Assembly (NCBI RefSeq): GCF_001528745.1
Contig: NZ_BCNS01000091.1
Coordinates: 124,001 to 188,000, forward strand
Reading direction: 5' to 3'
Length of the DNA stretch: 64,000 nt
Source of the DNA: Marinobacterium profundum
GTDB lineage: Bacteria; Pseudomonadota; Gammaproteobacteria; Pseudomonadales; Balneatricaceae
Positions 17,074-46,470 of the stretch are shown here, piece after piece; position 1 is the first letter of the stretch; every line of letters begins with the position of its first letter. The translations under genes and the position numbers were made by a program. The notes below the pieces were generated by a model. That model searched no databases. It was not told the DNA's origin and saw nothing but the letters and a program-made list of their open reading frames with translations.

Positions 17074-17103
17074 CCCCCGGTGTTTCACGTGAAACACCGG
17101 GGG
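17074..17103. promoter_or_regulatory. parS: parS site 2 inside a 30-bp perfect palindrome
   Basis: TGTTTCACGTGAAACA at 17081-17096 is an exact match to the consensus bacterial parS. It is extended on both sides by CCCCCGG / CCGGGGG, making 30 bp of perfect dyad symmetry. It lies between convergent genes 16 bp after the DUF808 stop. There is no T-run on either side, so an intrinsic terminator is unlikely. It is about 22 kb from the oriC candidate. Confidence 0.93.
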
Positions 17104-28720: not shown

Positions 28721-30292
28721 CTACGCCGTCAGGTGACGCAGCAGGTTCTGATAATCTTCTCTGATGTCCGTATCAATTTCCCGTAGCTCCTTGATCTTGC
28801 GACAGGCATGCAACACGGTAGTATGATCACGACCCCCAAACGCATTGCCGATTTCAGGCAGACTGTGGTTAGTCAGCTCTTTCGACAAACTCATCGCGAC
28901 CTGCCGGGGCCGGGCAATAGACCGGCTGCGGCGCTTGGAAAGCAGATCGGACATTTTAATCTTGTAGTAATCGGCTACAACCCGCTGAATATTATCAATA
29001 CTAACTTGTTTGTCCTGCAAAGCCAGCAGGTCTTTCAGCGACTCTTTAATGAAGGGCGTACTAATAACGCTGCCGGTAAAATGTGCGTTGGCAATAACGC
29101 GCTTTAAGGCACCTTCAAGTTCACGCACGTTAGAGCGGATTTTCTGCGCCAGGAAGAAGGCAGCATCATCCGGCAGGATAATCTTGGCTTCTTCAGCCTT
29201 CTTCATCACGATGGCAACGCGGGTTTCCAGCTCCGGCGGCTCAATGGCGACCGTTAGCCCCCAGCCAAAGCGGGATTTCAGTCGTTCTTCAACGCCATTA
29301 ATTTCCTTGGGGTAGCGGTCACTGGTCAGAATCATCTGCTGACCGCCTTCAAGCAGGGCGTTAAAGGTGTGGAAAAACTCTTCCTGCGAACGCTCCTTGC
29401 CGGCGAAGAACTGAATATCATCGATCAGCAACGCATCCACAGAGCGGTAATAGCGTTTGAAGTCATTAATCGCATTTAGCTGCAGCGCCTTCACCATATC
29501 GGCAACAAAACGCTCGGAGTGCAGATAAACGATACGGGCATTGGGATTGCGCTTGAGCATTTCAGCGCCCACGGCGTGCATCAAATGCGTTTTACCCAGA
29601 CCTACGCCACCATATATAAAGAGGGGGTTGTAGGAGCCGCCCGGATTGTCAGCCACCTGCTGCGCGGCCGCCAGCGCCAGCTGATTCGACTTACCACCCA
29701 CGAAGGACTGGAAGGTAAAGGACGGGTTGAGGTTGGACTGATGCCGCACACCGCCCTCAACCTCAACCACCTTGCGATCGTGTCGCGGACTCATGGTCGT
29801 CGCGAACACCGGCTCGGCAGGCGCCATATCCAGCTCTAGCTGTGGCTCTGGAACTCTGGGCAAAGCCTCGGGCTGATATTCCTGTTCCTGGGGCGCAGCA
29901 TTGTAACGTTGCTGCATCGGTGCCGAGGCCGGCTCGCTGCTATAGGCAGGCTCTGGATAGGCCGGTGCCGGGTCCCGCGGCGGTGCCGCCGGACGGGTAC
30001 GCAGTGGCGCCATGGCAGGGCGGGAAGGAGAACGCAAGGCTCCGCCTTGCTGGGCGACTTCCAGCCGCACATCGGCACCGACATCCCCGGTGACATCACA
30101 GACCACCTGGCGAATACGGTTAAGGAAACGGTCATTCACCCAGTCACGCACAAAGCGGTTCGGCGCCATGAGAACAAGCAGGCTGTCACGACCAGGCTCC
30201 GCCTTTAAAGGGCGAATCCAGGTGTTGTACTGCTGAGCCGGGAACTCCTCCTGCAGACTCTTCAAGCACTGTTCCCAAAGCTCGGTGGACAT
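28721..30292 (-). CDS. dnaA: Chromosomal replication initiator DnaA
   Basis: AAA+ initiator that binds DnaA boxes and opens oriC. The 523-residue product has domain I ([28 protein letters not shown], 2-29), a long Pro/Ala/Gln-rich domain II (about 90-185), domain III with Walker [16 protein letters not shown] and Walker [23 protein letters not shown], and domain IV ending in the box-reading signature [15 protein letters not shown]. The frame is open from 30331, but the ATG at 30292 has AGGAGA six bases upstream and starts exactly where homologues begin. A perfect DnaA box lies 75 bp upstream, suited to autoregulation. Confidence 0.98.
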
Positions 30293-31024
<732 letters not shown>

Positions 31025-37611: not shown

Positions 37612-38865
37612 TTAAGCGCGCAGCCAGTCGTCCTGCCACGGATAATGTGACAGCGGCTCGCAGCCATCGGCGGTAATCAGTACCTGCTGTTCCAGCTTGA
37701 TACCTTCAGCGCCACCCTTGGCACCTATGTAGCTCTCAACGCAGACCACCATATTCTCCTCGAACAGGCCATCGTAGCCGCCGCTATCCCAGTCCTTGCC
37801 GGCATGGGCTACGGCCGGAAACTCATCCGCCAATCCGACGCCATGCACCAGGCAGCAATAGCGGTTGTGATGAAATTCTGCCGGAATCGGCCAGGCACTA
37901 TGGGTAAAATCCCGATAACTGAGCCCGGCCCTGAGAAGCTCCATATTGGTATGGATTTGTTCATGGGCCAGACTATAAAGCCTGCGCTGCTCATCCGTAG
38001 GGGCAACATGGCCGACCGTCCAGGCCCTGGAAATATCCGCGCAGTAGCCGTAGGGGCCAATCAGGTCGGTGTCAAAAGACACTATCTCGCCGGCCTGCAT
38101 AACCCTGTCACTGGACTCCTGCATCCAGGGGTTGGTGCGCGGCCCTGAGGCCAAAAGCCGGGTCTCGATCCACTCGCCGCCATTGCGGATATTCTCGTAA
38201 TGCAGCCAGGCCCAGAGTTCGTTTTCCGTCATGCCTGGGCGCAGCTCATCGTGCATGCGGACGATTCCCTGCTCGCAGACATTGATGGTCCAGCGCATCA
38301 GCGCCAGCTCGTCCGTCGACTTGATGCGACGGGCTTCCTCCATCAGGCTATGGCCTTCAACAACCTTCACATCCAGACGCTGTAACAGTTCAAGCCCTTC
38401 GAACTCGGCTTTGTCTACCGCCAGGCGCGCACCCTTGCCACCATAATGACGTAGCAGATCCGCGATTTCGGCGGCCCAGAGCGCGGCTTTCTCACCCATG
38501 CGCGAACCCGCACCGAAGTAGCTCCAGTTCAGCGCCGGACGAATCTCGTCGATCAGCTCATTGCCGTGCTGCAGATGCTCGCAGTTGTGGAACTCCCACA
38601 GGATCACCGGACCCTCTGCAAACACCAGCGCATAGCGGGCATAGTTGTGCAGCGTCCAGACCTGCATGTTCGAACTGTCGGTGGCGTAACGTATATTCAC
38701 CGGGTCGTACAGCAGCATGGCGGTGCAATCATTTGCCCGCAGTTGCTCGCGCACACGCTGCAGACGATAACGCTTGGCCGCACTGTGCGTCTCTGGCGTG
38801 ACAGGGTTGCGCAGCGGCGCCTCTACGACAGATAGCTTTTCACTGCACTGGTTTTTGTCGGGCAT
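37612..38865 (-). CDS. dddP: DMSP lyase DddP (M24 metallopeptidase fold)
   Basis: Probably cleaves dimethylsulfoniopropionate to dimethyl sulfide and acrylate in the cytosol. The 417 residues follow the pita-bread M24 fold. YDPVNIRYATDSSNMQVW (53-70) and ENIRNGGEWIETRLLASGPR (224-243) resemble alphaproteobacterial DddP much more than ordinary Xaa-Pro peptidases. By comparison with the Ruegeria DddP numbering I recall, all metal ligands are present (D265, D267, D277, H341, E377, E392), as are the residues matching catalytic Asp377 (D347, in HGVGLADEF) and Tyr366 (Y336); offsets are a constant 29-30. An AAAGGTGAG sequence precedes ATG 38865. Alternative: an M24 creatinase or aminopeptidase. Confidence 0.82.
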   Translation of the reverse strand: MPDKNQCSEKLSVVEAPLRNPVTPETHSAAKRYRLQRVREQLRANDCTAMLLYDPVNIRYATDSSNMQVWTLHNYARYALVFAEGPVILWEFHNCEHLQHGNELIDEIRPALNWSYFGAGSRMGEKAALWAAEIADLLRHYGGKGARLAVDKAEFEGLELLQRLDVKVVEGHSLMEEARRIKSTDELALMRWTINVCEQGIVRMHDELRPGMTENELWAWLHYENIRNGGEWIETRLLASGPRTNPWMQESSDRVMQAGEIVSFDTDLIGPYGYCADISRAWTVGHVAPTDEQRRLYSLAHEQIHTNMELLRAGLSYRDFTHSAWPIPAEFHHNRYCCLVHGVGLADEFPAVAHAGKDWDSGGYDGLFEENMVVCVESYIGAKGGAEGIKLEQQVLITADGCEPLSHYPWQDDWLRA

Positions 38866-39903
38866 AACTCACCTTTAAAGGCAGCATATTGTCGTTGTTC
38901 TGGCGTCAAAAATACGCTAATCAGAGGCGCTGTAAATCGACAAATACTCACCGGGTCATTACCAAAAATCACCCTGCTCAGAGCCCCGTCATAACCCGGT
39001 ACGCGTGACGCCCAAGCGGATCAATCGACGGTCATCACCACAGTCGATAGCAACAGAGAATTCAGCAAAATATCGAATTTGGAATCTTCAATACAGGATT
39101 TTGATTTATACAGGCAAGATCTGCACAGCCAGAAAAGTATCCACAGGAAATAACTGCAAAATAGTTATTCACTGATATAACTTTACTCACAGAGAAAAGC
39201 GCCGCAGCCGGTAAAACAAGGTTATTCACAGGCGGTTATTTAGTGACTATACAGCTGCTATCCCACTATGAAACAACAGCTATTCAACCAGGTTGTTCAA
39301 TATACAAATAGCTGTTTTATATAGATTTATACCAATTACGCACAGAAACTATCAACATAGCCAGACTAGGTGCCCAGGGTGACGGCTGTAAGATATAGGG
39401 AAGGCGCACTGCGAATTGAGTCACTGTGGATAGAACCTCATCTTGCCAACAGCTTATTGACAGAAAGGGCACAGCAGCGGCAAATATCCGTGTGAACTGC
39501 CAGGCTCGATTTTATCCTGTGCATAGCTACGGGATAGACCTTTGGATATCACTGTGTGTAACTACCCCTGTGCATAACCACCTGTTTCATCAACAGCCTA
39601 TGCAACGCTTGCTCCCCCATCCGATAGCACCTTCATAACAACCTAGCAACTCTCGCAACATATTGTTTTATATAGATAATAATGCCTTTTAAACAGAAGA
39701 GGCCTTTACTAATAACAACAACAATTACTAAACACATATATAAAGAAAAATATATTTAACTCTTTAAGATCTAAAAGCGTTGAACAAAGGGAGTGTTCAT
39801 TTTTTGAACATTTTCTAATCGACAACATGGGAGTATACTTAGCGCCCATTTTACGACTGGCTCATCTGTCAGGCGGGCAATACTCAACCAGAGGTAATCA
39901 TCG
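38866..39903. other. oriC: Candidate origin of replication (oriC) upstream of mnmG
   Basis: This 1,038-bp gap has no credible gene and is much more AT-rich than its surroundings. DnaA-box-like 9-mers match TTATNCACA on the plus strand at 39222-39230 (exact) and 39137-39145 (one mismatch), with weaker copies at 39165 and 39183. On the minus strand they are at 39569-39577 (exact), 39425-39433, 39518-39526 and 39553-39561 (one mismatch each). An unwinding-element-like stretch, nearly all A/T with TATATA tracts, spans about 39655-39780, next to mnmG. The layout resembles E. coli and Vibrio oriC beside mnmG. parAB, gyrB, dnaA and dnaN are all within 16 kb. Confidence 0.8.
39794..39839 (+). promoter_or_regulatory. 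Palindrome and candidate promoter of mnmG
   Basis: Inverted repeat TGTTCA-N5-TGAACA at 39794-39810, followed by TATACT at 39834-39839 as a candidate -10 box, 65 bp before the mnmG start. The repeat sits where a -35 region or operator would be. The -35 box itself is unclear. Confidence 0.45.
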
Positions 39904-41798
<1,895 letters not shown>

Positions 41799-41799
<1 letters not shown>

Positions 41800-42425
41800 T
41801 GGACGCAAAATTCAAGGAACAGCTATTGCGCCAAAGCGGTGCAATGGGAATCGAACTGACCCAGCAACAGGCAGACCAGTTGATGGCCTATCTGGCATTG
41901 CTGGTGAAATGGAACAAGGCTTACAACCTCACCGCCGTGCGTGATCCGGCGCAAATGGTAACCCGCCATCTGCTCGACAGCCTCAGTGTGCTGCCCCATA
42001 TCCAGGGGCCCCGTCTGATCGATGTGGGCAGTGGCCCGGGCCTTCCCGGCATACCCCTGGCGATCTGTCGCCCCGATATAGCGGTAACCACGCTGGACAG
42101 CAACGGCAAAAAGACCCGTTTTCAGCAGCAGGTAAAGGCGGAACTGGGGCTCGATAACCTTGAGGTGATCAATGCCCGGGCCGAAAACTGTGACCGGCCG
42201 CCATTTGATCAGGTGATTTCCCGCGCCTTCGCCTCGCTGGAGGCCATGCTGCACTGGACCTCCCACCTGTGCCGCGAAGATGGTGTTTTTCTTGCAATGA
42301 AAGGTCTGTATCCTGATGACGAACTCCAGGCACTCACGCCTGGAATCGAACTCAAGGCCAGTCATCCCCTGCGGGTGCCGGGCAGTGAGGGTGCACGTCA
42401 TCTGCTGATTCTCGGGAGAGCCTGA
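41799..42425 (+). CDS. rsmG: 16S rRNA m7G527 methyltransferase
   Basis: SAM-dependent methylation of G527 in 16S rRNA; loss gives low-level streptomycin resistance in many bacteria. The 208 residues show [25 protein letters not shown] (about 46-70), the SAM loop [21 protein letters not shown] (about 73-93) and [15 protein letters not shown]. It overlaps mnmG by one base (TAATG) and lies 2 bp before the parA start, so mnmG-rsmG-parA-parB is likely one operon. Confidence 0.98.
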
Positions 42426-42427
42426 CC

Positions 42428-43258
42428 TTGGCGAAAATCCTCACCATCACCAACCAGAAAGGCGGGGTGGGCAAGACAACGACCTGCGTCAATCTGGCAG
42501 CGTCACTGGCGGCGACCAAAAAGCGCGTGCTGATGATCGACCTGGACCCCCAGGGCAATGCCACCATGGGCAGCGGTATCGACAAACATACCCTCAAGCT
42601 GTCGGCCTATGATGTACTCACCGACCAGGCCAGCGCCGCAGAGGCGCGTCTGACCGAGGTGCCGGGTGGCTATCATGTAATCGGTGCCAATGGCGATCTG
42701 ACTGCCGCCGAGGTTGAGCTGCTGAGCCTGCCACGGCGCGAGTTCCGCCTCAAGATGGCGTTGCTCGAAGTGGTGGATGAGTATGACTATATACTGCTCG
42801 ACAATCCGCCCTCGCTGAACCTCCTGACCGTCAATGCCCTGGCCTGTTCCAGCGGCGTGATTATCCCCATGCAGTGCGAGTACTACGCGCTTGAGGGGAT
42901 CAGCGCTCTGGTGGGCACCATCAACAAGATCAATCAGCGTCTTAATCCGGAACTGAAGATTGAAGGCATTCTGCGTACCATGTTCGACCCGCGCATGAGC
43001 CTGACCCGCGATGTCTCCAACCATCTGGTGGACTACTTCGGTGATCAGGTCTATCGCACTGTAATTCCGCGCAATGTACGTCTGGCCGAGGCACCCAGTC
43101 ATGGGCTGCCGGCGCTGATGTACGATAAAAGCTCCCGCGGCGCTCTGGCTTACCTCGCGCTGGCGGGTGAGCTTATTCGCAAGACGGCGCAGGTTAAGGC
43201 GGCCGAGGCTGCCGATACCACGGCGGCTGATAAAGCACAGGTACAGGAAACAAACTGA
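42428..43258 (+). CDS. parA: Chromosome-partitioning ATPase ParA (Soj)
   Basis: Walker-type ATPase that forms nucleoid gradients moved by ParB-parS complexes. The 276 residues start with a TTG codon and read MAKILTITNQKGGVGKTTTCVNLAA, the deviant Walker A motif with its signature lysine (K11/K16). LLIDLDPQGNATMGSG-like (RVLMIDLDPQGNATMG) and DYILLDNPPSLNLLTVNAL are the switch motifs. The Ala- and Asp-rich C-terminal tail (about 258-276) is variable in the family. The TTG lies 2 bp after rsmG, and the stop overlaps the parB ATG. Confidence 0.97.
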   Translation: MAKILTITNQKGGVGKTTTCVNLAASLAATKKRVLMIDLDPQGNATMGSGIDKHTLKLSAYDVLTDQASAAEARLTEVPGGYHVIGANGDLTAAEVELLSLPRREFRLKMALLEVVDEYDYILLDNPPSLNLLTVNALACSSGVIIPMQCEYYALEGISALVGTINKINQRLNPELKIEGILRTMFDPRMSLTRDVSNHLVDYFGDQVYRTVIPRNVRLAEAPSHGLPALMYDKSSRGALAYLALAGELIRKTAQVKAAEAADTTAADKAQVQETN

Positions 43259-44136
43259 TGGCTGCAATGAAACGGGGCCTGGGACGCGGGCTGGATGCGT
43301 TACTGTCCACGGTGGAACAGGTACATGAACCGGTGAGCCGGGAAGCGGCCGCGCCGCTGGAGGGCTTTCGACTGCTGTCGGTCGACGCCATTCAGCGTGG
43401 CCGCTATCAGCCCAGGCGTGATCTGGAACCCGGTGCCCTGGAAGAACTGGCCGATTCAATTCGCGCCCAGGGCATCATGCAGCCGATCGTGGTGCGCTCG
43501 GTGGACGGCAAGGACCGCTTCGAGATTATTGCCGGTGAGCGCCGCTGGCGCGCCGGCCAAATGGCGGGCCTGACCGAAATCCCGGTGCTGGTGCGCGAAG
43601 TATCCGATGAGTCTGCCATCGCCATGGCACTGATCGAAAACATTCAGCGCGAAAACCTCAATCCCATCGAAGAAGCCGTGGCACTGCAGCGGCTGCAGCA
43701 GGAATTCGAGCTGACACAGCAGCAGGTCGCCAAGGCTGTAGGCAAATCACGTTCGACTATTGCCAATCTTCTGCGGCTGATGAAGCTGGAGGAAGAGGTC
43801 AAGAAGATGCTCGACTACGGCGACCTCGAAATGGGCCATGCCCGTGCGCTGCTGTCACTGGAAAGCGAAGCTCAGCTTGAAGCCGCCAGAGAGGTGGTTG
43901 CCCGCGGCCTCACCGTACGTCAGACGGAAGCTTTGGTGCGCAAACTGCAAGCTCCGGAAACCCCAAGTGCTGCACCTGCAAAGCCCGATCAGGGACTGGA
44001 ACAGCTGGCCGGCGAGCTGTCGCAGCGCTTTTCGACGCCCGTTACCATCAGTCGCAATGCCCGCGGCAACGGCAAGATCACTATTGCCTACAGTGGCGAA
44101 GCCGAGCTGGATGCCATTCTGAAGACCCTCAAATAA
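43258..44136 (+). CDS. parB: Chromosome-partitioning protein ParB (Spo0J)
   Basis: CTP-dependent DNA clamp that loads at parS and spreads. The 292 residues contain the ParB/Srx CTPase domain (about 40-130) with IMQPIVVR and the C-box GERRWRAGQMAGLTEIPV, ENIQRENLNPIEEAVALQRLQQEFELTQQQVAKAVGKSRSTIANLLRLM (central helix-turn-helix region, about 130-190) and a C-terminal dimerisation domain (about 245-292). It overlaps parA by one base. Two parS-like sites are present in the window at 13.87 and 17.08 kb. Confidence 0.98.
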   Translation: MAAMKRGLGRGLDALLSTVEQVHEPVSREAAAPLEGFRLLSVDAIQRGRYQPRRDLEPGALEELADSIRAQGIMQPIVVRSVDGKDRFEIIAGERRWRAGQMAGLTEIPVLVREVSDESAIAMALIENIQRENLNPIEEAVALQRLQQEFELTQQQVAKAVGKSRSTIANLLRLMKLEEEVKKMLDYGDLEMGHARALLSLESEAQLEAAREVVARGLTVRQTEALVRKLQAPETPSAAPAKPDQGLEQLAGELSQRFSTPVTISRNARGNGKITIAYSGEAELDAILKTLK

Positions 44137-44287
44137 GTTGCTGCTTTTTTGCACACTCAGGCCCGGCGCGGCTTTGCCGGCCGGGGCGGGTGGCAAAACA
44201 CAGAGAATAGCCGCAGCGCAGCCCCTGTAAGCCGTATTCGCAAGGGGTGATGCTCTAGTACCTTAGTGCAAAAGGCGCTGACTTCGG

Positions 44288-44316
44288 TTGATGCCTTACA
44301 GCAATACCCCTATAAT
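44288..44316 (+). promoter_or_regulatory. Sigma70 promoter of the atp operon
   Basis: TTGATG, exact 17-bp spacer, TATAAT, 63 bp before atpI. It is the best sigma70 match in the window and sits in the 243-bp gap after parB. Confidence 0.8.
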
Positions 44317-44379
44317 CGGCACGCTGTTTAGGGGGTAGTCGCCAAAACAGTCTAGGCTGATCGGGTTGAACTCGGGGAT

Positions 44380-44790
44380 ATGATGGGAAACCAGCGCACA
44401 GGTGCCCAGTCCCGGGATACAGGGAAAGATGTCCTTGGCATTCTGTTAATTCAGGCTATTGTTGTACTGCTGCTGTCGGCGGCACTGCTGCTGAAAGGGA
44501 ATGTTCTGGCATACTCGGCACTGCTGGGTGGGCTTATTTATCTGATTCCCAATCTGTACGTGACGTTGCGTACACTACCCCACCGCGCAGGCTCCACCGC
44601 TGGAATGGTGCTTGCGCAGTTGTATATCGGCCAAATATGGAAAATGGCACTGTCAGTCGCAGGGTTCACCGCGACCTTCATCTGGGTTAAACCCCTCAGT
44701 CCATTTTCCATATTTGGTACATTCATTCTGTTGCAGCTGCTGGGTATGCTGCTGCTGATGATGTCCAGACAACGGTTCCTGAAACTTTAA
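44380..44790 (+). CDS. atpI: ATP synthase subunit I
   Basis: A 136-residue membrane protein with four predicted helices (about 22-42, 46-65, 80-103, 106-130), thought to aid c-ring assembly or Mg2+ uptake. Residues ALLGGLIYLIPNLYVTLRTL are typical for AtpI. It is the first gene of atpIBEFHAGDC. Two adjacent ATGs are possible starts (44380, 44383). Confidence 0.92.
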   Translation: MMGNQRTGAQSRDTGKDVLGILLIQAIVVLLLSAALLLKGNVLAYSALLGGLIYLIPNLYVTLRTLPHRAGSTAGMVLAQLYIGQIWKMALSVAGFTATFIWVKPLSPFSIFGTFILLQLLGMLLLMMSRQRFLKL

Positions 44791-44794
44791 GTGA

Positions 44795-45628
<834 letters not shown>

Positions 45629-45656
45629 TTGAAGTATTGGTCAGGGAAAATTGTAA

Positions 45657-46470
<814 letters not shown>

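Follow-up and report, generated by a model that had tools for sequence, protein, structure and literature searches.

A predicted chromosomal replication origin in the gap upstream of mnmG in Marinobacterium profundum

The gap upstream of mnmG and its sequence elements

The region analyzed here, referred to as the window, is a stretch of 64,000 nucleotides of Marinobacterium profundum, corresponding to bases 124001-188000 of a 253,785-bp contig within a draft assembly of 5.64 Mb in 226 contigs. The genus is placed under Oceanospirillaceae in the NCBI taxonomy, and the genome is close to Marinobacterium sedimentorum, the MnmG protein encoded in the window sharing 98% identity with its counterpart in strain OS208. 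An intergenic gap of 1,038 bp (38866..39903) separates an M24-peptidase gene, located on the minus strand (37612-38865), from mnmG (gidA), which extends on the plus strand from a GTG start at 39904 to position 41799 and constitutes the conserved right flank of the gap. The left edge aligns poorly in genomes G004 and G005, the mnmG side well. The dnaA gene occupies, by ORF extent, positions 28721..30331 on the minus strand; its actual start codon is probably the ATG found at 30292-30294, because the annotated-looking start in the complete chromosome of a congeneric strain (G001) coincides with residue 14 of the ORF. Rfam and tRNA scans of the 64-kb window returned zero matches. A perfect parS 16-mer, the sole perfect copy on the 254-kb contig, is found at 17081-17096, at a distance of 22 kb to the predicted origin. 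A palindrome, TGTTCA-N5-TGAACA (39794-39810), precedes mnmG by about 100 bp; it is largely conserved in 5 of 7 genomes of the genus and may be a regulator site.

DnaA boxes were searched on both strands with TTATNCACA as consensus, up to one mismatch being allowed. Ten such 9-mers, two of them exact copies, form an array of 441 bp (39137..39577) within the gap: boxes on the plus strand start at 39137, 39165, 39183, 39222, 39336 and 39454, those on the minus strand at 39425, 39518, 39553 and 39569, so that the left group is on the plus strand and the right group mainly on the minus strand. The array includes the exact box TTATTCACA (39222..39230, plus strand) and a pair of minus-strand boxes, TTACACACA at 39553 and TTATGCACA at 39569, spaced by 16 nt (39553..39577). 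A sequence-only reading of this DNA had noticed at least eight box-like 9-mers in two opposed groups; this is confirmed, and the number found is well above chance: when the gap is shuffled 1,000 times with its dinucleotides preserved, ten is never reached (mean 1.5, maximum 6). The gap is also the densest 500 bp of the whole contig, where the runner-up holds 4 boxes and the total is 100 matches. From 8 to 10 boxes are present at the same place in all 7 genomes of the genus; the minus-strand pair is kept in each of them, 334-353 bp upstream of mnmG, with 9 of its 14 boxes exact and 5 carrying one mismatch.

Moving toward mnmG, the box array and its minus-strand pair are followed by a weak plus-strand box, TTTTAAACA (39687..39695, two mismatches), at the position of the E. 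coli R1 box, then by a spacer of 14 nt (39696-39709), by TAATAACAACAACAA and by AT-rich DNA. The triplet run, TAA TAA CAA CAA CAA (39710..39724, plus strand), resembles a DnaA-trio and was reproduced in 0 of 100 shuffles. The AT-rich stretch already remarked upon in the gap turned out to be a predicted DNA unwinding element (39706..39765, no strand assigned), having the lowest nearest-neighbour stability of any 60 bp in the window. A box followed at 14 nt by [TC]AATAA occurs in 7 of 7 genomes of the genus, in two of them as CAATAA. The box at the R1 position (39687-39695) is degenerate throughout the genus, with two mismatches in 6 of 7 genomes and one in G004, and about 115 nt separate it from the strong boxes.

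GC skew and the position of the replication start

The GC skew of the contig changes sign only once, describing a single V with its cumulative minimum at window position 43,156, and not at 30.3-30.9 kb, the location that would have spoken for dnaA. By 5-kb steps, the skew is negative throughout up to about 41 kb and positive in all steps but one beyond this point. A least-squares fit to the raw values sets the change-point at 43.0 kb (95% interval 40,250-45,750 on the contig data); forcing the switch onto the mnmG gap costs 9.1 units of log-likelihood, onto the dnaA gap 37.7. When third codon positions are used to correct for gene strand, the change-point moves to 41.25 kb (interval 37,750-45,250, which now covers the mnmG gap); this correction, noisy because of crude ORF calls, was used as a secondary check only, and agrees in most relatives, with the exception of G017 and G006, where it shifts the switch 19 and 8 kb off the gap, respectively. 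The dnaA gap falls outside both intervals. The raw minimum lies 3.3 kb past the mnmG gap, on the downstream side of this gene, and the gap falls just outside the raw interval, which speaks against a perfect fit; the resolution of the method is about 3-4 kb. The skew intervals therefore exclude the dnaA gap, and are consistent with the mnmG gap at this resolution.

These data bear on two other placements of the origin. Clusters of DnaA boxes can have roles other than initiation, as in datA and in dnaA autoregulation, and the mnmG array might thus merely titrate DnaA or regulate mnmG, the origin being at dnaA. This is highly improbable, as the skew excludes the dnaA gap and the mnmG gap contains, in addition to the array, a core of E. 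coli type, made of box, 14 nt, triplets and AT-rich DNA. Taking the raw change-point of 43.0 kb at face value, the origin could instead lie 3-4 kb beyond the gap, near rsmG/parA (about 42-43 kb), and offsets of 1.6-3.8 kb in the same direction are indeed seen in G001, G006, G009 and G012. That region, however, is without a box cluster, only single matches being found at 42861 and 43173; the switch is no more than 0.5 kb away from the mnmG gap in G015, G017 and G024, and likewise in the E. coli control; the coding-strand bias of mnmG and rsmG could account for the offset. We consider an origin at this place extremely unlikely.

Among relatives, the distance between dnaA and mnmG ranges from 9 to 34 kb, which amounts to a natural experiment. 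Eight genomes are resolvable, having a cluster upstream of mnmG on a sufficiently long contig (G000, G001, G006, G009, G012, G015, G017 and G024), and in all of them the raw switch follows mnmG: its distance is 0.4-3.8 kb to the mnmG gap, against 11-36 kb to the dnaA gap. In the E. coli control, 360 bp separate it from the annotated oriC. The complete chromosome G001, whose skew was thinly sampled (nineteen pieces of 20 kb each, and a further 200 kb about the ends of the record), consists of one positive and one negative arm, joined at the mnmG region. Its record begins at dnaA, with the switch about 12 kb away, near mnmG, and the numbering of a chromosome from dnaA does not, therefore, mark its origin. 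G023, which is without an mnmG cluster, has its switch near dnaA: the distance is 0.9 kb to the dnaA gap and 35 kb to mnmG.

The dnaA side and conservation among relatives

The gap between rpmH and dnaA contains a single DnaA box, exact and on the plus strand (30368..30376), as the sequence-only reading had stated. One box in this gap is unremarkable, 425 of 1,000 shuffles reaching that count, and the 28-bp dnaA-dnaN gap has zero boxes at up to one mismatch. The cluster expected here for an origin of the Pseudomonas type is absent, the gap holding one box. A perfect box is found at the corresponding place upstream of dnaA in 7 of 7 genomes of the genus, and the box at 30368 probably serves dnaA autoregulation.

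It had also been proposed that the two gaps might work jointly, as the halves of one bipartite origin. The conserved box upstream of dnaA, together with the occurrence of clusters in both gaps in a few relatives (G010 and G025), could be read in this sense. The second of the two box clusters that a bipartite origin would require is, however, absent in the sequence studied here, where the dnaA gap holds one box. A single switch, at mnmG, is seen in relatives whose dnaA is 20-34 kb away from mnmG. Furthermore, bipartite origins are described in a review (PMC4285127) as spanning up to about 2 kb, usually with dnaA between the two halves. A split origin is accordingly very unlikely.

Box clusters upstream of mnmG are not peculiar to this species. 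They exceed all of 200 shuffles (0/200) in 22 of 28 genomes, including the one studied here (a further genome, G020, was dropped from the initial 29 because its contig is cut), and specifically in 7 of 7 genomes of the genus and 17 of 19 of the family. By the same test, 34 of 80 named loci pass, among them all 11 Pseudomonas loci, while none of 29 beta-, chromatial and other loci does, the groups having been drawn up from record titles. The mnmG-side cluster is common to many other Gammaproteobacteria, E. coli included. With clusters so widespread on the mnmG side, the sample shows no sign of origin movement in this lineage, and the suggestion that the origin had shifted by 9 kb from dnaA is not borne out.

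Taken together, box clustering, conservation, the core shared with E. coli, the minimum of helix stability and the skew switch indicate, with high confidence, that the chromosome starts replicating in the gap upstream of mnmG, at a predicted origin of the mnmG-adjacent type known from Gammaproteobacteria and exemplified by E. coli oriC. The initial proposal of an oriC candidate at this gap rather than at dnaA is thus sustained by both the box cluster and the skew. The gap displays several features of the mnmG type, namely adjacency to mnmG, a box cluster above chance, a skew switch at this site (within about 3-4 kb) rather than at dnaA and a core made of box, 14 nt, triplets and predicted unwinding element, in which the box has two mismatches. 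We infer that DnaA binding, melting and initiation take place here. DnaA would occupy the array at 39137-39577; starting on the weak box in the R1 position, at 39687, a filament would then extend over the 14-nt spacer to the triplet run at 39710-39724; the neighbouring AT-rich DNA would open, and helicase loading would give rise to two forks. The most likely replication start in the genus Marinobacterium is now located in the mnmG gap.

Clusters in both gaps were observed in G010 (loci L026 and L057), where the two gaps lie on separate short contigs, and in G025 (L029 and L059), where the switch falls between the two gaps of a 47-kb contig. It is conceivable, if rather doubtful, that origin position in Pseudomonadales is a switchable trait based on two sites: an ancestor might have had full box fields at both mnmG and dnaA, of which lineages such as Marinobacterium would have kept only the former and others, like G023, only the latter, while Pseudomonas, G010 and G025 would have kept both, some perhaps using both. 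Relatives having mnmG-only, dnaA-only or both clusters provide a ready comparison set for origin use.

Comparison with known origins

The gene neighbourhood of the gap is like that of the Pseudomonas origin region, and in 11 of 11 Pseudomonas loci (L075-L079, L081-L085 and L090) box clusters are found upstream of mnmG, as in Marinobacterium; in 5 of the 11 the mnmG gap contains a box followed at 14 nt by TAA. The two differ on the dnaA side, where the rpmH-dnaA gap holds 4-10 boxes in Pseudomonas (10 of 10 measured) and one in Marinobacterium. The premise that the Pseudomonas origin lies between rpmH and dnaA is too simple, given the mnmG-gap cluster present in 11 of 11 loci. The rpmH-dnaA interval is given as oriC in passages of papers on P. 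putida and Pseudomonas sp. UW4 (PMC3056050, PMC3596284), and those of PMC3596284 do not treat the Marinobacterium origin; for P. aeruginosa, two autonomously replicating elements are mentioned in part of a 2015 opinion paper (PMC4403523). In the two Pseudomonas genomes analyzed for skew (G030, G031) there is no clean V, and the two gaps are not separable. The Pseudomonas R1 motif of gammaBOriS, as given in a portion of PMC7174414, is found in 5 of the 11 Pseudomonas loci, always in the mnmG gap.

According to the Ori-Finder paper (PMC2275245), only about 60% of 568 chromosomes have an oriC that adjoins dnaA and is close to the skew switch. DoriC 10.0, in the part of its description concerned, reports some Gammaproteobacteria with two candidate oriCs, retaining the gidA-side one; the choice is made there by GATC enrichment, which is absent in the Marinobacterium gap.

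The gap differs in several respects from E. coli oriC, located between mioC and mnmG. The Marinobacterium gap has 3 GATC sites in 1,038 bp, hence no enrichment, against 14 in 379 bp in E. coli; SeqA gave no match in a search of the draft genome, in which the E. coli control was detected, and zero matches to the strict IHF consensus WATCARNNNNTTR are present in the gap. With GATC unenriched in the gap and SeqA not detected in the draft, timing by sequestration in the E. coli manner is unlikely in this bacterium. Both are traits of an enteric subset, and do not define the class of gammaproteobacterial mnmG-type origins. E. coli oriC measures 232 bp, as compared to an array of about 440 bp with ten box-like sites; the R1-position box is weak in Marinobacterium, unlike that of E. 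coli; the left neighbour is an M24 peptidase instead of mioC; and dnaA is 9 kb from the origin region, instead of 42 kb.

The likenesses involve the core itself. Both regions lie directly upstream of mnmG, with the AT-rich side toward this gene, and in both mnmG is followed by rsmG and then by the atp genes. In the annotated E. coli record, the plus-strand box TTATCCACA is separated by exactly 14 nt from TAATAAGAG, which provides the TAATAA, in the same orientation as in the Marinobacterium gap. This spacing was surveyed in 108 sequences, as the distance from a box (up to two mismatches, ending in ACA) to [TC]AATAA: the distribution has a sharp peak of 25 loci at 14 nt, the second most frequent value being 26 nt (13 loci). 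With groups assigned from record titles, and 13 named loci belonging to no group left out of the counts, the 14-nt arrangement followed by AT-rich DNA is found in 17 of 24 Enterobacterales/Alteromonadales-like loci versus 0 of 29 others; among the named Nitrincolaceae-like loci the arrangement is found in 0 of 3 at one mismatch. Origins on the mnmG side are common in Gammaproteobacteria, and the site seemed odd because Pseudomonas had served as model: measured against E. coli oriC instead, the predicted Marinobacterium origin is very probably an ordinary one, of the known mnmG-side type.
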